Below, piece after piece: positions 10,418 through 61,641 of a stretch of 64,000 nucleotides of DNA (its first letter is position 1; every line of letters begins with the position of its first letter). Under the pieces are notes generated by a model. The model did no database searches and had not been told where the DNA came from. It saw only the letters and a program-made list of their open reading frames with translations. This DNA comes from Pseudomonas sp. NCCP-436. GTDB taxonomy: Bacteria > Pseudomonadota > Gammaproteobacteria > Pseudomonadales > Pseudomonadaceae. The DNA is taken from NCBI RefSeq assembly GCF_019656335.1, contig NZ_BPLZ01000006.1, positions 1-64,000 on the forward strand, written 5' to 3'. A program made the translations under genes and the position numbers.

Positions 10418-10449
10418 TTGACTTATAAATGAGAATAGTTATTATTAAC
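10418..10449 (+). promoter_or_regulatory. prrF promoter with overlapping Fur-box-like site
   Basis: TTGACT (10418-10423) and TATTAT (10440-10445) are spaced 16 nt apart. The 19 bases at 10431-10449 match the Fur consensus GATAATGATAATCATTATC at 13 of 19 positions by my hand alignment and cover the -10 element. Fur repression under iron sufficiency is the known control of prrF genes. Confidence 0.8.
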
Positions 10450-10451
10450 CC

Positions 10452-10564
10452 AACTGGTCGCGAGATCAGCCGATAAGCTAAAGAGACCTTCAGTCGGACT
10501 CTTCAGGTTATCTCCTCATCAGGCTAATCACGGTTATTGACCCGGCTTTTGCCGGGTCTTTTTT
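10452..10564 (+). ncRNA. prrF: PrrF iron-responsive small RNA
   Basis: About 113 nt between cbpA and the phu region. It contains the conserved PrrF core TCTCCTCATCAGGCTAATCA at 10511-10530, which pairs with target mRNAs such as sodB and haem/TCA-cycle genes in characterised Pseudomonas. The 5' part starts AACTGGTCGCGAG as in P. aeruginosa PrrF1. It ends in an 8-bp GACCCGGC/GCCGGGTC hairpin (10539-10558) followed by seven T. PrrF spares iron by repressing iron-using proteins when Fur is inactive. Only one copy is here, whereas P. aeruginosa has a tandem pair at this place; a second copy could lie elsewhere. Confidence 0.95.
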
Positions 10565-10565
10565 T
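10539..10565 (+). terminator. prrF Rho-independent terminator
   Basis: An 8-bp GC-rich stem with a TTTT loop (10539-10558) is followed by a run of seven T. It ends prrF and lies only 29 nt from the stop of the convergent SnoaL-like gene. Confidence 0.93.
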
Positions 10566-10593
10566 GCCTGTACGAAACGCCCCTTCCGCCACT

Positions 10594-22406: not shown

Positions 22407-22583
22407 ATGTATATCTATCGACTGGTTCTGATCCTCGTGGTGGGAATCTATCTGTTCTCACCGGCCATCATGGACTGGTGGATCGACCCTCATGGCGCCT
22501 GGTACCGGCCTTACCTCTTGTGGCTGATCCTGATCGTCGTAACCTTCATCCTGCAGAGCCAACGCGATGCTGACGAGCTATAG
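22407..22583 (+). CDS. cbrX: Small membrane protein overlapping cbrA (CbrX-like)
   Basis: A 58-residue protein with two hydrophobic segments (about 4-20 and 37-52) flanking a DWWIDPHGAWYRPY connector. Its last 17 nt overlap the start of cbrA, so ribosomes finishing it could re-initiate on cbrA. I recall that Pseudomonas has a short open frame named cbrX at this place, whose translation affects CbrA levels; the symbol is assigned on that basis and is not certain. GAGG 7 nt upstream supports ATG 22407. Confidence 0.7.
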   Translation: MYIYRLVLILVVGIYLFSPAIMDWWIDPHGAWYRPYLLWLILIVVTFILQSQRDADEL

Positions 22584-25521
22584 CCTGAGCGAGCTGATTC
22601 TGATCAGCGCCGGCTACCTGCTGATACTCTTTGGCGTGGCTTGGCTCAGCGAGCACGGCCTGATCCCACGCCGGATCATTCGCCACCCGCTGACCTACAC
22701 CTTGTCGCTGGGCGTGTATGCCAGCGCCTGGGCCTTTTACGGCACCGTCGGCCTGGCCTACCAGTACGGCTACGGTTTCCTCGCCAGCTACCTGGGAGTA
22801 TCCGGAGCCTTCCTGCTGGCCCCAGTGCTGCTCTATCCGATCCTGCGCATCACCCGAACCTACCAACTGTCATCGTTGGCCGACCTGTTCGCCTTCCGCT
22901 TCCGCAGCACCTGGGCCGGCGCGCTGACCACCCTGTTCATGCTGATCGGCGTACTGCCATTGCTGGCCCTGCAGATCCAGGCGGTGGCCGACTCCATCGG
23001 CATACTCAGCCGCGAGCCGTTACAGGAAAAAGTGGCGCTGGGCTACTGCGCACTGATCATCCTTTTCACCATCCTCTTCGGCGCCCGTCATATCGCCACC
23101 CGCGAAAAGCACGAAGGTCTGGTGTTCGCCATCGCCTTCGAGTCGCTGGTCAAGCTGGTGGCGCTCGGCAGCATTGGCCTGTACGCGCTGTACGAAGTAT
23201 TCGGCGGCCCACGCGAACTGGAACTGTGGCTGGTGCAGAATCAGGCGGCGCTATCGACCCTGCACACCCCGCTGCAGGAAGGTCCCTGGCGTACCCTGCT
23301 GCTGGTGTTCTTTGCCTCAGCCATAGTCATGCCGCACATGTACCACATGACCTTCACCGAGAATCTCAACCCCCGCGCCATGGTCAGCGCCAGTTGGGGC
23401 CTGCCGCTGTTCCTGCTGCTGATGAGCCTGGCTGTACCGCTGATCCTCTGGGCAGGTCTGAAATTGGGGGCCACTACCAATCCGGAATACTTCACCCTCG
23501 GTCTGGGTATTGCCATCAACAACGAAACCCTGGCCCTGCTCGCCTACATCGGCGGGCTTTCCGCCTCCAGCGGACTGATCATCGTCTCTACCCTGGCCCT
23601 CTCGGGAATGGTGCTGAACCACCTGGTACTGCCGCTGTACCAACCACCGGCCGAAGGCAACATCTACCGCTGGCTGAAATGGACACGGCGCACGCTGATC
23701 GTCTTCATCATCATGGCCGGTTACGGCTTCTACCTACTGCTCGGTGCCCAGCAGGATCTGGCCAACCTTGGCATCGTCGCCTTCGTCGCTACCCTACAGT
23801 TCCTGCCAGGGGTGCTCTCGGTACTGTACTGGCAGACAGCCAACCGACGCGGCTTCCTGGCCGGACTGCTGGCCGGCATTACGGTCTGGACTCTGGGCAT
23901 GCTGCTGCCACTGCTCGGCAATCTGGATGGTTTCTACTTGCCACTGCTCAACATTGTCTATGTGCTCGACGATGCCAGCTGGCACCTGGCGGCCATCGCC
24001 TCGCTAGCCGCCAACGTCTTGGCATTCACTCTGGTTTCACTGTTTACCGAGGCCAGTCCCGAGGAGAAGAGCGCCGCCGAAGCCTGTGCAGTGGACAACG
24101 TGCGCCGCCCGCAACGCCGTGAACTGGTCGCCGTATCGCCACAGGACTTTGCCGCACAACTGGCCAAACCGCTGGGCGCCAAAACGGCACAGCGCGAGGT
24201 GGAGCAGGCCCTGCGCGACCTGCACCTGCCGTTCGACGAAAGCCGTCCCTATGCCCTGCGCCGCCTGCGCGACCGTATCGAGGCCAACCTCTCGGGCCTG
24301 ATGGGACCGAGCGTGGCGCAGGACATCGTCGAGACCTTCCTGCCGTACAAATCCGGCAGCGAGGGTTACGTCACCGAGGACATTCACTTCATCGAAAGCC
24401 GGCTGGAGGACTACCAATCGCGCCTTACCGGTCTTGCCGCCGAGCTCGACGCACTGCGCCGCTACCACCGCCAGACGCTGCAGGAACTGCCCATGGGCGT
24501 CTGCTCACTGGCCAAGGATCAGGAGATTCTGATGTGGAACCGGGCAATGGAGGAACTCACCGAGATACCTGCCCAGCGCATCGTCGGCTCGCGCCTGAGC
24601 ACCCTGAGCGAGCCCTGGCAAAGCCTGCTTCAGGACTTTATCGAACGACCAGATCAGCACCTGCACAAGCAGCACCTGGAAGTTGACGGGCAGATTCGCT
24701 GGCTCAACCTGCACAAGGCCGCCATCGACGAGCCGCTGGCTCCCGGAAACAGCGGCCTGGTACTGCTGGTCGAGGATCAGACCGAGACTCAACTGCTCGA
24801 AGACAAGCTGGTGCACTCCGAACGCCTGGCCTCCATCGGCCGCCTGGCTGCCGGCGTGGCGCACGAGATCGGCAACCCCATCACTGGTATCGCCTGCCTG
24901 GCGCAGAATCTGCGCGAAGAGCGCGAGAACGATGCCGAGCTGACCGAGATCAGCGGGCAGATCCTGGAACAGACCCGGCGTGTATCACGTATCGTCCAGT
25001 CACTGATGAGCTTTGCCCACTCCGGTAGCCACCAGCGTAGCGACGAGCCAGTCTGCCTGGCCGACGTAACGCAGGATGCCATCGGCCTGCTGTCGCTGAA
25101 CAAGCGCAACTTCGACATCCAGTTCTACAACCTGTGCGCTCCCGAGCACCTGGTCTGCGGCGACCCTCAACGCCTGGCCCAGGTGCTGATCAACCTGCTT
25201 TCCAATGCCCGCGACGCCTCACCGCCCGGCGGCGCCATCCGTGTACGCAGCGAGGCCGGCGAGCACACCGTCGACCTGATCGTGGAAGATGAGGGTAGCG
25301 GCATTCCCAAGGCCATCATCGACCGCCTGTTCGAGCCCTTCTTCACCACCAAGGATCCGGGCGAAGGAACAGGTCTGGGCCTTGCGCTGGTCTATTCGAT
25401 CGTGGAAGAGCATTATGGACAGATAACCATCGACAGCCCGGCAGACCCCGAGCGCCAGTTGGGCACTCGAATTCGCGTAACCCTGCCGCGTCATGTCGAG
25501 ACGACGTCCGTAGCGATGTAA
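22567..25521 (+). CDS. cbrA: Sensor histidine kinase CbrA with transporter-like domain
   Basis: A 984-residue inner-membrane kinase. The N-terminal about 500 residues resemble SLC5/sodium-solute symporters with about 13 membrane segments, followed by the STAC-type linker, a PAS-like domain (about 635-740), the HisKA dimerisation domain with phospho-acceptor His766 in [13 protein letters not shown], and an HATPase domain with N-box [17 protein letters not shown], and [11 protein letters not shown]. It activates CbrB for use of amino acids and other carbon sources and can transport histidine in reported work. Its start overlaps the upstream small gene, and cbrB follows after 53 nt. Confidence 0.96.
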
Positions 25522-25574: not shown

Positions 25575-27002
<1,428 letters not shown>

Positions 27003-27047: not shown

Positions 27048-27095
27048 TGTTACCGCTTCAATATTTCGTAACAAAGGCCGGGTCTAACGGTAACG
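27048..27095 (+). promoter_or_regulatory. CbrB-binding sites upstream of crcZ
   Basis: TGTTAC (27048-27053) and GTAACA (27068-27073) form a perfect inverted pair with a 14-nt spacer, matching the CbrB recognition I recall from Pseudomonas. A third half-site, GTAACG, lies at 27090-27095. They sit 76-123 nt upstream of the sigma-54 promoter, the usual range for an NtrC-type activator. Confidence 0.85.
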
Positions 27096-27170
27096 AAAAG
27101 CCGGCCTCCGTTTCTGAACCAGCCATCCGAAGACTTACCAACCCATTGAATTTAAAGGATTTTCAAAAAC

Positions 27171-27186
27171 TGGCACGGCAACTGCT
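27171..27186 (+). promoter_or_regulatory. Sigma-54 promoter of crcZ
   Basis: The 16 bases TGGCACGGCAACTGCT carry GG at 27172-27173 and GC at 27184-27185, 10 nt apart, which is the sigma-54 spacing, with TGGCAC matching the -24 consensus exactly. Transcription should start near 27196-27197. Confidence 0.9.
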
Positions 27187-27195
27187 TTATATCTG

Positions 27196-27575
27196 GCACA
27201 ACAACAATAACAAGCAATGCCCTAGACAATAAGAACAAGACGTAACGACTCCAGAACAACAAAAACAACAATGCTAGGAGGCGCAGCTAACTGATTCTTT
27301 TGGAGAGGAGTTGCCACAGGGGTTCGCCCCGTTCGGTCAGGCCGAGAATAATAAAACTGTCCTCAGACAGCACCTGAACTGATTGAAAGCTGGCAGCATC
27401 AGCGTCCAAAGCAATCCGTTTGCTATTGACTCCCTCCCTTGGGGAGTGCCCGGCAAGCCACGGCAAACCGGGAAGGGCTCGACAAGAAAAACAACAGGCC
27501 CTCAATAACAACAAGAACAGAGCACGCACCAACTTGGGGGGGAGCTTCGGCTCCCCCAGTAGCTTCTGGCCCCCA
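27196..27575 (+). ncRNA. crcZ: CrcZ, small RNA that sequesters Hfq/Crc
   Basis: About 380 nt of non-coding RNA between cbrB and pcnB, rising from the sigma-54 promoter. It begins GCACAACAACAATAACAAGC as in P. aeruginosa CrcZ. AANAANAA (CA) motifs occur at 27200-27213 (overlapping), 27228-27238, 27255-27262, 27264-27271, 27347-27354, 27484-27491 and 27504-27517, giving at least six clusters for Hfq/Crc binding. It lifts Hfq-Crc repression of catabolic mRNAs when poor carbon sources activate CbrAB. The 3' end is placed by the hairpin at 27538-27557 and is approximate. No protein frame is convincing here. Confidence 0.93.
27538..27557 (+). terminator. Hairpin at the 3' end of crcZ
   Basis: A perfect 8-bp GGGGGAGC/GCTCCCCC stem with a TTCG tetraloop. 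There is no adjacent U-run; an alternative outer pairing TTGGGGG/CCCCCAA (27534-27540 with 27570-27576) is also possible. The remaining 260 nt to pcnB hold no gene I can support. Confidence 0.65.
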
Positions 27576-27836
27576 AATCCCCCGCCTGCCATCTCTTCCT
27601 GCACACCTCGTCCCGCCACGGTGCTAGAATCCGTAGCAAACATGCGGTTAACGTTTCGCATGCCGTTAAAATCGTCGCCAGGCGCGTCGATACAAGGCAA
27701 GGCAGCCCATGCGGCGGAGGTTCATGCACAGATTTACCTGCCCCGTCTGCAAGACTGCTCCTGAAGCTGCGCCGCCCGCACCGGCCGTTTCCAGTTGCAC
27801 GCGGCTGACCGGCCACCACATCAAACAGTGCATCCC

Positions 27837-29234
27837 ATGCTGAAAAAGCTGTTCAAGTCTCTCCGTTCCCCCCTACGCCGCGCCTCACGCCCACGCAGCA
27901 CGCCAGAGGTGCTCGGCAGCCGACAACACCCTATCAACCGCAACGAGATCAGCCGCAACGCCATCAGCGTAGTCGAGCGTCTACAGAAGGCCGGCTATCA
28001 GGCCTATCTGGTCGGCGGCTGCGTACGTGATCTGCTGCTGGACATCGACCCGAAGGATTTCGATGTCGCCACCAGCGCCACTCCCGAGCAGGTGCGCGCC
28101 GAGTTCCGCAATGCCCGGGTGATCGGCCGTCGCTTCAAGCTGGTACATGTTCACTTCGGCCGCGAGATCATCGAAGTTGCCACCTTTCGCGCCAATCACC
28201 CGCAAGGTAGCGACGAGGCCGACAGCAGCCGTGCAGCCCGCAACGAAAGCGGCCGCATTCTGCGCGACAACGTCTACGGCACGCTGGAAGACGATGCCCA
28301 GCGCCGCGACTTCACCATTAACGCGCTGTACTACGACCCGACGCAGGAACATATCCTCGACTACGCCCGCGGCATGCACGACGTGCGCAACCATCTGGTA
28401 CGCCTGATCGGCGACCCCGAGCAGCGCTATCTCGAGGATCCGGTTCGGATGCTGCGTGCAGTACGCTTCGCCGCCAAGCTGGACTTCGATATAGAGAAGC
28501 ACAGTGCCGCGCCGATCCGCCGACTGGCGCCGATGCTGCGCGACATCCCGGCGGCACGCCTGTTCGACGAAGTACTCAAGCTGTTTCTCGCCGGTTACGC
28601 CGAATACACCTTCGATCTGCTGCTCGAGCACGACCTTTTTGCCCAGTTGTTCCCGGCCAGCGGCGAAGCCCTGCAGCAGAATCCCGAATACACCGAGAAG
28701 CTGATCCGCCAGGCACTGATCAACACCGACGAACGCATCCACAGCGGCAAGTCGGTCACTCCGGCATTCCTTTTCGCCGCTCTGCTCTGGCCCGCTCTGC
28801 CGGCCCGCGTACTGCAATTGCAGGAGCGCGGCATGCCGCCAATCCCGGCAATGCAGGAAGCCGCCCACGATCTGATCACCGAGCAATGCCGGCGGATTGC
28901 CGTACCCAAGCGCTTCACCATCCCGATTCGTGAGATCTGGGACATGCAGGAACGCCTGCCACGCCGCAGCGGCAAGCGTGCCGATCTGCTACTGGAAAAC
29001 CCACGCTTCCGTGCTGGCTACGACTTCCTTCTGCTGCGCGAACTGGCTGGCGAAGACACCGGCGGACTGGGAGCCTGGTGGACTGCATACCAGGAAGCCA
29101 GTGACAGCCAGCGCCGACAGATGATCCGAGACCTGGCCGGCAAGTCCGAGGCAGGCGGCAATGCCCCACGCAAGCGCCGTCGCAGCAATGGCCGTCGCAA
29201 ACGTAGTGAGGGCGGCAGCGCCGCAGCAGAATAG
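27837..29234 (+). CDS. pcnB: Poly(A) polymerase I
   Basis: A 465-residue class II nucleotidyltransferase that adds A-tails to RNA 3' ends and so marks them for decay. The active-site head is LVGGCVRDLLL with DPKDFDVATSA carrying the metal-binding Asp pair, then RRDFTINALYYD and the RNA-binding motifs (DPVRMLRAVRFAAKLDF). The C-terminal tail (about 435-465) is very basic (KRRRSNGRRKRSEGG), typical of PcnB rather than CCA-adding enzymes. ATG 27837 starts MLKKLFKSLR. It is followed 2 nt later by folK, so the two are co-transcribed, as in other Pseudomonas. Confidence 0.94.
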   Translation: MLKKLFKSLRSPLRRASRPRSTPEVLGSRQHPINRNEISRNAISVVERLQKAGYQAYLVGGCVRDLLLDIDPKDFDVATSATPEQVRAEFRNARVIGRRFKLVHVHFGREIIEVATFRANHPQGSDEADSSRAARNESGRILRDNVYGTLEDDAQRRDFTINALYYDPTQEHILDYARGMHDVRNHLVRLIGDPEQRYLEDPVRMLRAVRFAAKLDFDIEKHSAAPIRRLAPMLRDIPAARLFDEVLKLFLAGYAEYTFDLLLEHDLFAQLFPASGEALQQNPEYTEKLIRQALINTDERIHSGKSVTPAFLFAALLWPALPARVLQLQERGMPPIPAMQEAAHDLITEQCRRIAVPKRFTIPIREIWDMQERLPRRSGKRADLLLENPRFRAGYDFLLLRELAGEDTGGLGAWWTAYQEASDSQRRQMIRDLAGKSEAGGNAPRKRRRSNGRRKRSEGGSAAAE

Positions 29235-54751: not shown

Positions 54752-55021
54752 TTAGCGACGCAGGCCCAGGCGACCGATCAGGGCGCTGTAACGAGTAGTG
54801 TCCTTACCCTTCAGGTAATCCAGCAGCTTGCGGCGCTGGTTAACCATACGGATCAGACCACGACGGCTGTGGTGATCCTTGCCGTTGGCCTTGAAGTGAC
54901 CTTGCAGCTTGTTGATGTTGGCGGTCAGCAGGGCAACCTGCACTTCCGGGCTACCGGTATCGCCTTCAGCTTGCTTGAACTCGTTAACGATCTGGGCTTT
55001 TTCTTCAACGCTGAGTGCCAT
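54752..55021 (-). CDS. rpsO: Ribosomal protein S15
   Basis: An 89-residue small-subunit protein that binds 16S rRNA and nucleates platform assembly. It has the expected length and the family core [25 protein letters not shown] plus [21 protein letters not shown] (residues about 22-81). The ATG at 55021 (MALSVEEKA) is used; a five-codon extension is unlikely. It lies between truB and pnp, as in most gammaproteobacteria. Confidence 0.98.
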
Positions 55022-55088
55022 GTTGGCTTCCTCCATTCAGGAAACTGCCGAAGCAGTCTCAATAGGCCGGGAATCACTCCCCGTGTTT

Positions 55089-61208: not shown

Positions 61209-61237
61209 TTAACGGCCCTCGTGCATGCTGTGCAAAT

Positions 61238-61259
61238 AAAAAATGGGCGAAACGCCCAT
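61238..61259 (-). terminator. Hairpin terminator in the rimP leader
   Basis: ATGGGCG/CGCCCAT with loop TTT is followed by TTTTTTATTTG on the minus strand, 29 nt before rimP. It lies downstream of the tRNA gene's own terminator and could limit read-through into rimP-nusA. In E. coli the metY-nusA leader also has terminators in which NusA regulates itself; that role is inferred. Confidence 0.8.
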
Positions 61260-61437
61260 CCCTTCGATCCACCACGATCGGCGGACAGTGTATCCAGCGA
61301 AGAACCTATTACGACGCTGCCAACCGAAACCCTGCTAAAAAGACAGCAAGAGACGAGCGGGTTCAAATTCGATCGTAGCAGCCATGCACCCGCCGCTCAT
61401 CACGACAAAACCGGCACATGACCATCAAGGTTCCAAC

Positions 61438-61460
61438 AAAAAGCCCCTGAACAGGGGCTT
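61438..61460 (-). terminator. tRNA-fMet terminator
   Basis: AAGCCCCT/AGGGGCTT with loop GTTC, then TTTTTG on the minus strand, starts 8 nt after the tRNA CCA end. It ends the tRNA transcript before rimP. Confidence 0.88.
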
Positions 61461-61467
61461 CTGGAAC

Positions 61468-61544
<77 letters not shown>

Positions 61545-61561
61545 CCTAAAGCTGGGCCGGA

Positions 61562-61590
61562 ATTATACGACCCACCCCTCAAAGGGTCAA
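61562..61590 (-). promoter_or_regulatory. Sigma-70 promoter of tRNA-fMet with GC-rich discriminator
   Basis: On the minus strand TTGACC (61590-61585) and TATAAT (61567-61562) are 17 nt apart, a near-perfect consensus. The next bases are TCCGGCCC, a GC-rich discriminator of the stringently controlled type. Transcription should start near 61555, about 11 nt before the tRNA. Confidence 0.88.
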
Positions 61591-61606
61591 CCAACACTGC
61601 GACAAC

Positions 61607-61636
61607 AAGAAAGCCCGCATTATTGCGGGCTTTCTT
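61607..61636. terminator. Terminator after tRNA-Leu
   Basis: A perfect 13-bp AAGAAAGCCCGCA/TGCGGGCTTTCTT stem with loop TTAT, followed by TTG on the minus strand. It ends the secG/tRNA-Leu transcript before the tRNA-fMet promoter. Confidence 0.85.
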
Positions 61637-61641
61637 GAATA

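Follow-up and report, generated by a model that had tools for sequence, protein, structure and literature searches.

CrcZ and related systems

The closest described relatives of the locus considered here are the CrcZ RNAs of P. aeruginosa and P. putida. The P. aeruginosa RNA is described as a transcript of 407 nt with six A-rich stretches; it binds Hfq at the distal face and titrates this protein (PMC4063720), and six clusters are likewise reported for CrcZ of A. vinelandii (PMC5429807). At P. putida crcZ, according to PMC6296734, activation by CbrB takes place via three independent, non-palindromic subsites (F1, R1 and R2), of which R2, written GTAACg, is the most important; the same source describes CbrB as mainly a monomer in solution and reports that IHF assists the activation. 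An SLC5-like domain is a described feature of CbrA (PMC7096432), and a review from 2022 presents CbrAB as unique to Pseudomonadaceae (PMC8871633). The locus analysed here lies in a stretch of 64,000 nucleotides (64 kb) from Pseudomonas sp. NCCP-436, referred to below as the window.

The crcZ locus of the window

The gene order at the locus is cbrA-cbrB-crcZ-pcnB, and crcZ is thus located downstream of cbrAB. The genes and the putative regulatory elements, all on the + strand, are the following:

22567..25521, +, cbrA, sensor kinase, an ORF of 984 aa with PAS, HisKA and HATPase_c domains (Pfam)
25575..27002, +, cbrB, sigma-54-dependent response regulator with Response_reg, Sigma54_activat and AAA lid domains
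27048..27053, +, putative CbrB subsite F1, TGTTAC, with layout as in P. putida crcZ
27068..27073, +, putative CbrB subsite R1, GTAACA, 20 b past F1, with layout as in P. putida crcZ
27090..27095, +, putative CbrB subsite R2, GTAACG, 22 b past R1 and 82 b ahead of the -24 GG
27136..27148, +, putative IHF site TACCAACCCATTG, with one mismatch to WATCAANNNNTTR
27171..27186, +, sigma-54 promoter TGGCACGGCAACTGCT by its letter pattern, GG-N10-GC
27198..27593, +, CrcZ small RNA, Rfam RF01675, 307.6 bits against a gathering cut-off of 95, E 2.9e-85, model positions 1-398 of 398
about 27538..27557, +, 3' G+C-rich hairpin without a U tract, from the sequence and Rfam match and from folding
27837..29234, +, pcnB, the downstream neighbour, TIGR01942, 611.4 bits against a cut-off of 305.65

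The covariance model RF01675 is covered from end to end by the match at this locus (cmscan), and this match, the gene order and the promoter layout identify the locus as crcZ with very high confidence. The genome contains one CrcZ copy over the gathering cut-off, with no second match at E<=10, and its crc gene is located between rph and pyrE. Along most of its length, CbrA of the window shares 42-54% identity with the gene that precedes cbrB in six loci outside Pseudomonadaceae (L035-L040, presented below), and no Pfam match to an SLC5 / sodium-solute symporter domain was obtained in it at E<=0.001.

The original prediction had proposed an inverted TGTTAC/GTAACA site, a third half-site and a -24/-12 promoter, and all of these elements are present, at 27048 and 27068, at 27090 and at 27171, respectively. 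The pair TGTTAC-N5-25-GTAAC occurs a single time in the window, compared with a mean of 0.06 per shuffled window (100 shuffles), and the promoter is the sole TGGCAC-N6-TGCW on either strand of the window. The predicted transcription start, approximately 12 b past the -12 GC, coincides with the 5' end of the Rfam match at 27198. The letters of the CbrB site were read correctly, but its description as an inverted repeat plus an additional half-site understates R2, because the P. putida subsites are independent and non-palindromic and R2 is the most important of them. The putative IHF site, absent from that prediction, was scored against the IHF consensus WATCAANNNNTTR.

At the 3' side, the elements proposed for the stretch from 27048 to 27575 are in place, but the end at 27575 is only nominal: a terminator scan detected no terminator-like site on the + strand at the 3' end of the window crcZ, and the hairpin stretch folds modestly better than shuffles (z -1.49). 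This modest value and the missing U tract make the 3' end of the RNA uncertain.

Within crcZ, an extra GTAACG (27242-27247, +) equals a CbrB half-site and belongs to a stretch conserved in the Rfam consensus; it is possibly a CbrB contact or a coincidence. Elsewhere in the window, the iron-regulated small RNA PrrF is found at 10418-10566 on the + strand (RF00444, 150.6 bits, the only PrrF match over the cut-off in the window), and a ribosomal protein S15 leader at 54965-55061 on the - strand (RF00114, 48.1 bits, cut-off 39.5).

A-rich clusters and predicted folding

The original prediction of at least six Hfq/Crc motif clusters is borne out by a count of six CA clusters, which hold 15 overlapping AANAANAA motifs. 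Shuffled sequences contain a mean of 0.59 and a maximum of three clusters, and six were reached in 0 of 2000 shuffles. The clusters, with their predicted mean unpaired probabilities, are located as follows:

27200..27213, +, CA cluster 1, 0.98
27228..27238, +, CA cluster 2, 0.89
27255..27271, +, CA cluster 3, 0.95
27347..27354, +, CA cluster 4, 0.99
27484..27494, +, CA cluster 5, 0.99
27504..27517, +, CA cluster 6, 0.77

When the RNA is folded alone, as the ensemble of one sequence, the mean unpaired probability is 0.92 within the clusters and 0.39 in the rest of the molecule; for A residues, the corresponding values are 0.93 inside and 0.63 outside the clusters. The second-densest AANAANAA spot in the window, at 61235-61640 on the + strand, presents three clusters within 400 b, adjoins two tRNA genes on the opposite strand and gives no CrcZ match; it is taken as chance.

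CrcZ within the genus

CrcZ is present in the 99 Pseudomonas genomes searched (99/99), and the window genome and 13 others among them hold a single match over the cut-off. Clusters were counted alike in 44 genus loci, namely 30 best hits, the locus of the window and 13 loci from single-copy genomes. Six clusters are found in 43 of these 44 loci and five in the remaining one, and all 44 combine a sigma-54 site with two or more CbrB half-sites. Twenty-three of the loci are negative for a cbrB-end probe and are presumed to be CrcY/CrcX, although the genome of one of them, L118, has no other copy; all 23 carry six clusters.

These counts give no support, within the genus, to the suggestion that the number of CA motifs might differ from that of P. 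aeruginosa and affect capacity, the P. aeruginosa side of this comparison being the published figure (PMC4063720). The idea that motif number sets the window CrcZ apart from the genus was therefore rejected. An additional candidate, that single-copy genomes compensate with more clusters, was also rejected: among the 14 single-copy loci, six clusters are present in 13 and five in the other, and the 30 best-hit loci all have six. The window copy is an ordinary, textbook CrcZ, whose six clusters are not special.

A probable switch across the order

The arrangement in which CbrAB and sigma-54 drive an Hfq/Crc decoy is very probably ancestral to the whole order (in the GTDB sense) and not an invention of Pseudomonadaceae. 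The decoys would have gone mostly unseen by the RNA model; their clusters appear nearly frozen at six in Pseudomonas and range from 2 to 14 elsewhere, the interval from the last half-site to the promoter seems to be conserved (about 80 b), and in one family or more (f8) the RNA has apparently left the vicinity of cbrB. This degree of confidence is based on the order of the motifs, on synteny, on controls of three kinds and on weak hits of the covariance model.

A search for CbrB in named genomes left 80 loci, most of them NtrC-type paralogs. Outside Pseudomonadaceae, CbrB at 61-67% identity was found in L035-L040, from Gilvimarinus agarilyticus, G. gilvus, a Cellvibrionaceae MAG, a Neptunomonas MAG, Halomonas maura and a gammaproteobacterial contig. 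In each of them a CbrA homolog, matching over most of its length, is located upstream of cbrB, and its domains were seen in three. L035 was left out of the downstream comparison, as its contig ends 346 b past cbrB. The five loci with enough downstream DNA all present at least two half-sites, a TGGCAY...GC promoter and four to nine CA clusters past cbrB. Of the five, a single one is listed by Rfam, and its score of 36.3 bits is below the cut-off of 95. Within a MAG labelled Pseudomonadaceae (L033), CbrB is encoded, but the 1100 b read are free of CA motifs, half-sites and strict sigma-54 sites. The carriers of the switch in the order would include Cellvibrionaceae, and also Halomonas and Neptunomonas, two genera that GTDB presumably places in the same order as Pseudomonas.

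CbrB orthologs at E<=1e-120 are encoded in 239 of 293 genomes of the order. The 1.65 kb downstream of cbrB was taken from 120 genomes, hand-chosen to spread over families; 11 regions of the window's own family and two that were short at contig ends were set aside, leaving 107. The layout was defined by three elements in order: two or more exact half-sites, a strict sigma-54 site that has these half-sites in the 300 b preceding it, and two or more CA clusters in the 650 b that follow. The full layout is present in 80 of the 107 regions outside the window's family, representing 33 of 41 families, and in 12 of 12 regions of that family (the 11 fetched and the window). The same layout is found in none of 5350 dinucleotide shuffles, none of the 107 reverse strands and none of 63 stretches downstream of NtrC-type paralogs. 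Among 252 tiles of the window, only the two that overlap the crcZ locus contain it. The paralog control comprises 63 of the 71 loci L041-L111, eight being left out, seven of them for short downstream DNA; the eighth, L105 (628 b), was tested separately and lacks both the layout and a strict sigma-54 site.

The covariance model gives a view of its own on these RNAs. In a search whose stricter filters lose weak matches, no more than 15 of the 293 order genomes score above the RF01675 cut-off; 12 of them belong to family f1 and three to f2, which is the only family outside f1 to reach it. Outside f1, 48 genomes have an Rfam match, of which 43 were compared; G111, G212, G213, G272 and G376 were left out for want of a listed CbrB coordinate. 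The best hit falls less than 700 b past cbrB, on the same strand, in 37 of the 43, with 35 hits below the threshold and two (G144 and G179) over it. That the hits fall at cbrB is an independent sign pointing to common descent. By the curated cut-off the distant RNAs, except those of f2, are outside RF01675; they would work like CrcZ, mostly at its locus, and the model probably misses most of them because little is kept beyond promoter geometry and A-rich clusters.

At the level of the class, a CbrB-like protein at E<=1e-120 was detected in 28 of 274 genomes, and all 25 cbrB loci outside the order were examined. The layout is present in none of the 25 within about 2.8 kb of cbrB (837 b and 2224 b for two contigs). 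There are two near misses: L338 has three half-sites, a sigma-54 site and one CA cluster close past cbrB, and L337 has four half-sites and a sigma-54 site with no CA cluster. They may represent another kind of CbrB target or a precursor state.

Variation in clusters, spacing and position

The 80 full cases contain between 2 and 14 CA clusters, with a median of four. Successive R sites are most often 22 b apart. From the last of them to the -24 GG, the distance is 79-83 b in the main group, and minor groups lie near 68, 90 and 103 b. With one value per family (n=33), the distance from the last R to the -24 GG gives a resultant of 0.69 at a period of 10.5 b (Rayleigh p about 1.5e-7), in a statistic where the best period is broad (10.5-12), the main peak is dominant, distances over 120 b were dropped and relatedness inflates the values; outside the main peak of 79-83 b, periods of 10.5 b and 11 b give p values of 0.02 and 0.002, respectively. 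The distances are suggestive only of a promoter spacing that might move in steps of one helical turn.

The full layout fails in 27 of the 107 regions, and eight families are without any pass (f7, f8, f10, f18, f25, f26, f42 and f43). In five of the 27 (G105, G281, G302, G247 and G107) the cassette is located elsewhere or further downstream. Four f8 genomes (G105, G259, G281 and G302; L290-L293) encode a CrcZ-like RNA away from cbrB that keeps CbrB half-sites, a GG-N10-GC promoter and three or four clusters; in G281 and G259 the base past the -12 GC breaks the strict letter rule, with GG-N10-GC kept. G247 and G107 carry the cassette about 1.8 and 2.5 kb downstream of cbrB, respectively.

Eight further failing regions, three f26 genomes among them, have the promoter and the clusters with fewer than two exact half-sites. 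In these f26 loci (L271, L275 and L276), CbrB is only 49-54% identical, and a sigma-54 site and four CA clusters accompany fewer than two exact half-sites; the binding motif of CbrB has perhaps changed in this family. The other 14 failing regions include all four f43 genomes sampled (L261, L262, L267 and L272), in which CbrB is present but the full layout is missing downstream and no protein matches Crc at E<=1e-55, a possible joint loss of the decoy layout and Crc. Ten longer stretches taken from failing cases contain no full layout.

Mechanism and alternative explanations

The window locus is almost certainly crcZ acting as a CbrB/sigma-54-driven decoy for Hfq-Crc. When preferred carbon is scarce, CbrA would activate CbrB, which, as in P. 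putida and P. aeruginosa, would bind F1, R1 and R2. A bend introduced by IHF may then help CbrB to drive the sigma-54 RNA polymerase at the -24/-12 promoter. The resulting RNA, of approximately 380-400 nt, is predicted by folding to expose six unpaired A-rich CA clusters, which would bind the distal face of Hfq, together with Crc. Sequestration of Hfq would in turn free catabolic mRNAs from Hfq-Crc repression. CbrB binding, IHF binding, induction and Hfq sequestration are carried over from the P. putida and P. aeruginosa work, and confidence that this mechanism operates in the window organism is high. The original reading of a complete switch is thus strengthened by the Rfam match, the gene neighbourhood, the promoter layout and the presence of crc in the genome, and its mechanistic part stands by analogy; it is the mechanism known from P. 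putida and P. aeruginosa, taken together with crc in the genome, that makes the switch the right reading.

Short motifs do arise by chance, as a strict sigma-54-like site alone is found in 36 of 5350 shuffled intergenic regions and in 12 of 63 paralog stretches, so that the A-rich stretches could in principle be compositional and the promoter-like letters a coincidence. The probability of this explanation is practically negligible: it is already refuted by the covariance match (E 2.9e-85) and by conservation, with six clusters reached in 0/2000 shuffles and the ordered layout found in 80/107 regions outside the family against 0/5350 shuffles. The A-rich region might instead be the 5' leader of pcnB, in which case Hfq-Crc would control the poly(A) polymerase and there would be no independent decoy. 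The presence of pcnB in the downstream stretch of 96 of 121 regions, window included, is in line with this idea, as is the 3' hairpin of the window without its U tract; nevertheless, it is very improbable, since the CrcZ of P. aeruginosa and that of P. putida are known to act as regulatory RNAs in their own right (PMC6296734, PMC4063720). The displaced RNAs of the four f8 genomes, which keep half-sites, promoter and clusters away from cbrB, and the cassettes of G247 and G107, some 1.8 and 2.5 kb past it, also argue against a leader. Additionally, of 69 full regions, 45 have a terminator-like hairpin in the interval from the second cluster to pcnB, compared with 10 of 690 shuffles (24 of the 69 lack one by that rule), which lends indirect support to the distant RNAs being independent transcripts that would sequester Hfq/Crc.

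A different question is whether, outside Pseudomonadaceae, the CbrB-driven RNAs are Hfq decoys that do not need Crc, or that regulate something other than carbon repression. Nine of the 80 full regions come from genomes without a Crc match at E<=1e-55, as would be expected if Crc were dispensable, yet the other 71 come from genomes with one (214 of the 293 order genomes have such a protein), and a divergent Crc may escape the E-value threshold. Thirty genomes were chosen by hand for a comparison with XthA: the best match has its higher score with Crc in all 30, and pyrE or rph is present in the locus in 23. Crc-free or otherwise directed decoys are, on this evidence, unlikely, and the Hfq/Crc decoy remains the preferred reading across the order.

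Significance of a probable order-wide switch

Among the literature matches listed, which are open-licence papers, there is no report of a CrcZ RNA beyond Pseudomonadaceae, and other papers could hold one. As far as the literature was searched, the order-wide switch appears undescribed, and the window CrcZ itself is of an already known kind. If the order-wide reading is true, a Pseudomonas-specific regulator becomes an order-wide one, the printed claim that CbrAB is unique to Pseudomonadaceae would have to be corrected, and a wider RNA family model would be called for. It would also predict carbon catabolite repression by Hfq, mostly together with Crc, in marine and halophilic genera, for which none is reported among the matches listed, and it would provide naturally graded decoys, from 2 up to 14 binding clusters, with which to study how decoy capacity sets regulation.

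Comparison with known systems

The window CrcZ resembles those of P. aeruginosa and P. putida in its position past cbrB, the F1, R1 and R2 subsites, the sigma-54 promoter, the six A-rich stretches and the 3' hairpin. Nothing of substance was seen to differ, and the window genome has one copy; even the letters of R2, GTAACG, are the same as those of the P. putida crcZ subsite GTAACg. With the CrcY and CrcX RNAs of P. putida, A. vinelandii and P. syringae it shares the Rfam family, the promoter type and the six clusters. Unlike the window CrcZ, CrcY and CrcX are unlinked to cbrB, and none was found in the window genome.

Another parallel is the A. baumannii sRNA99/ABUWs076, which its authors, on the basis of Hfq RIL-seq, call reminiscent of CrcZ and to which three potential A-rich motifs are ascribed; the main text of that 2025 paper does not contain CbrB or Crc as whole words (PMC12802169). 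Finally, RsmY and RsmZ of the Gac/Rsm system are, like CrcZ, described as RNAs driven by a two-component system that bind an RNA-binding regulator and inactivate it (PMC8871633). They differ from CrcZ in the protein targeted, which is RsmA. The decoy motif is likewise a different one, GGA.
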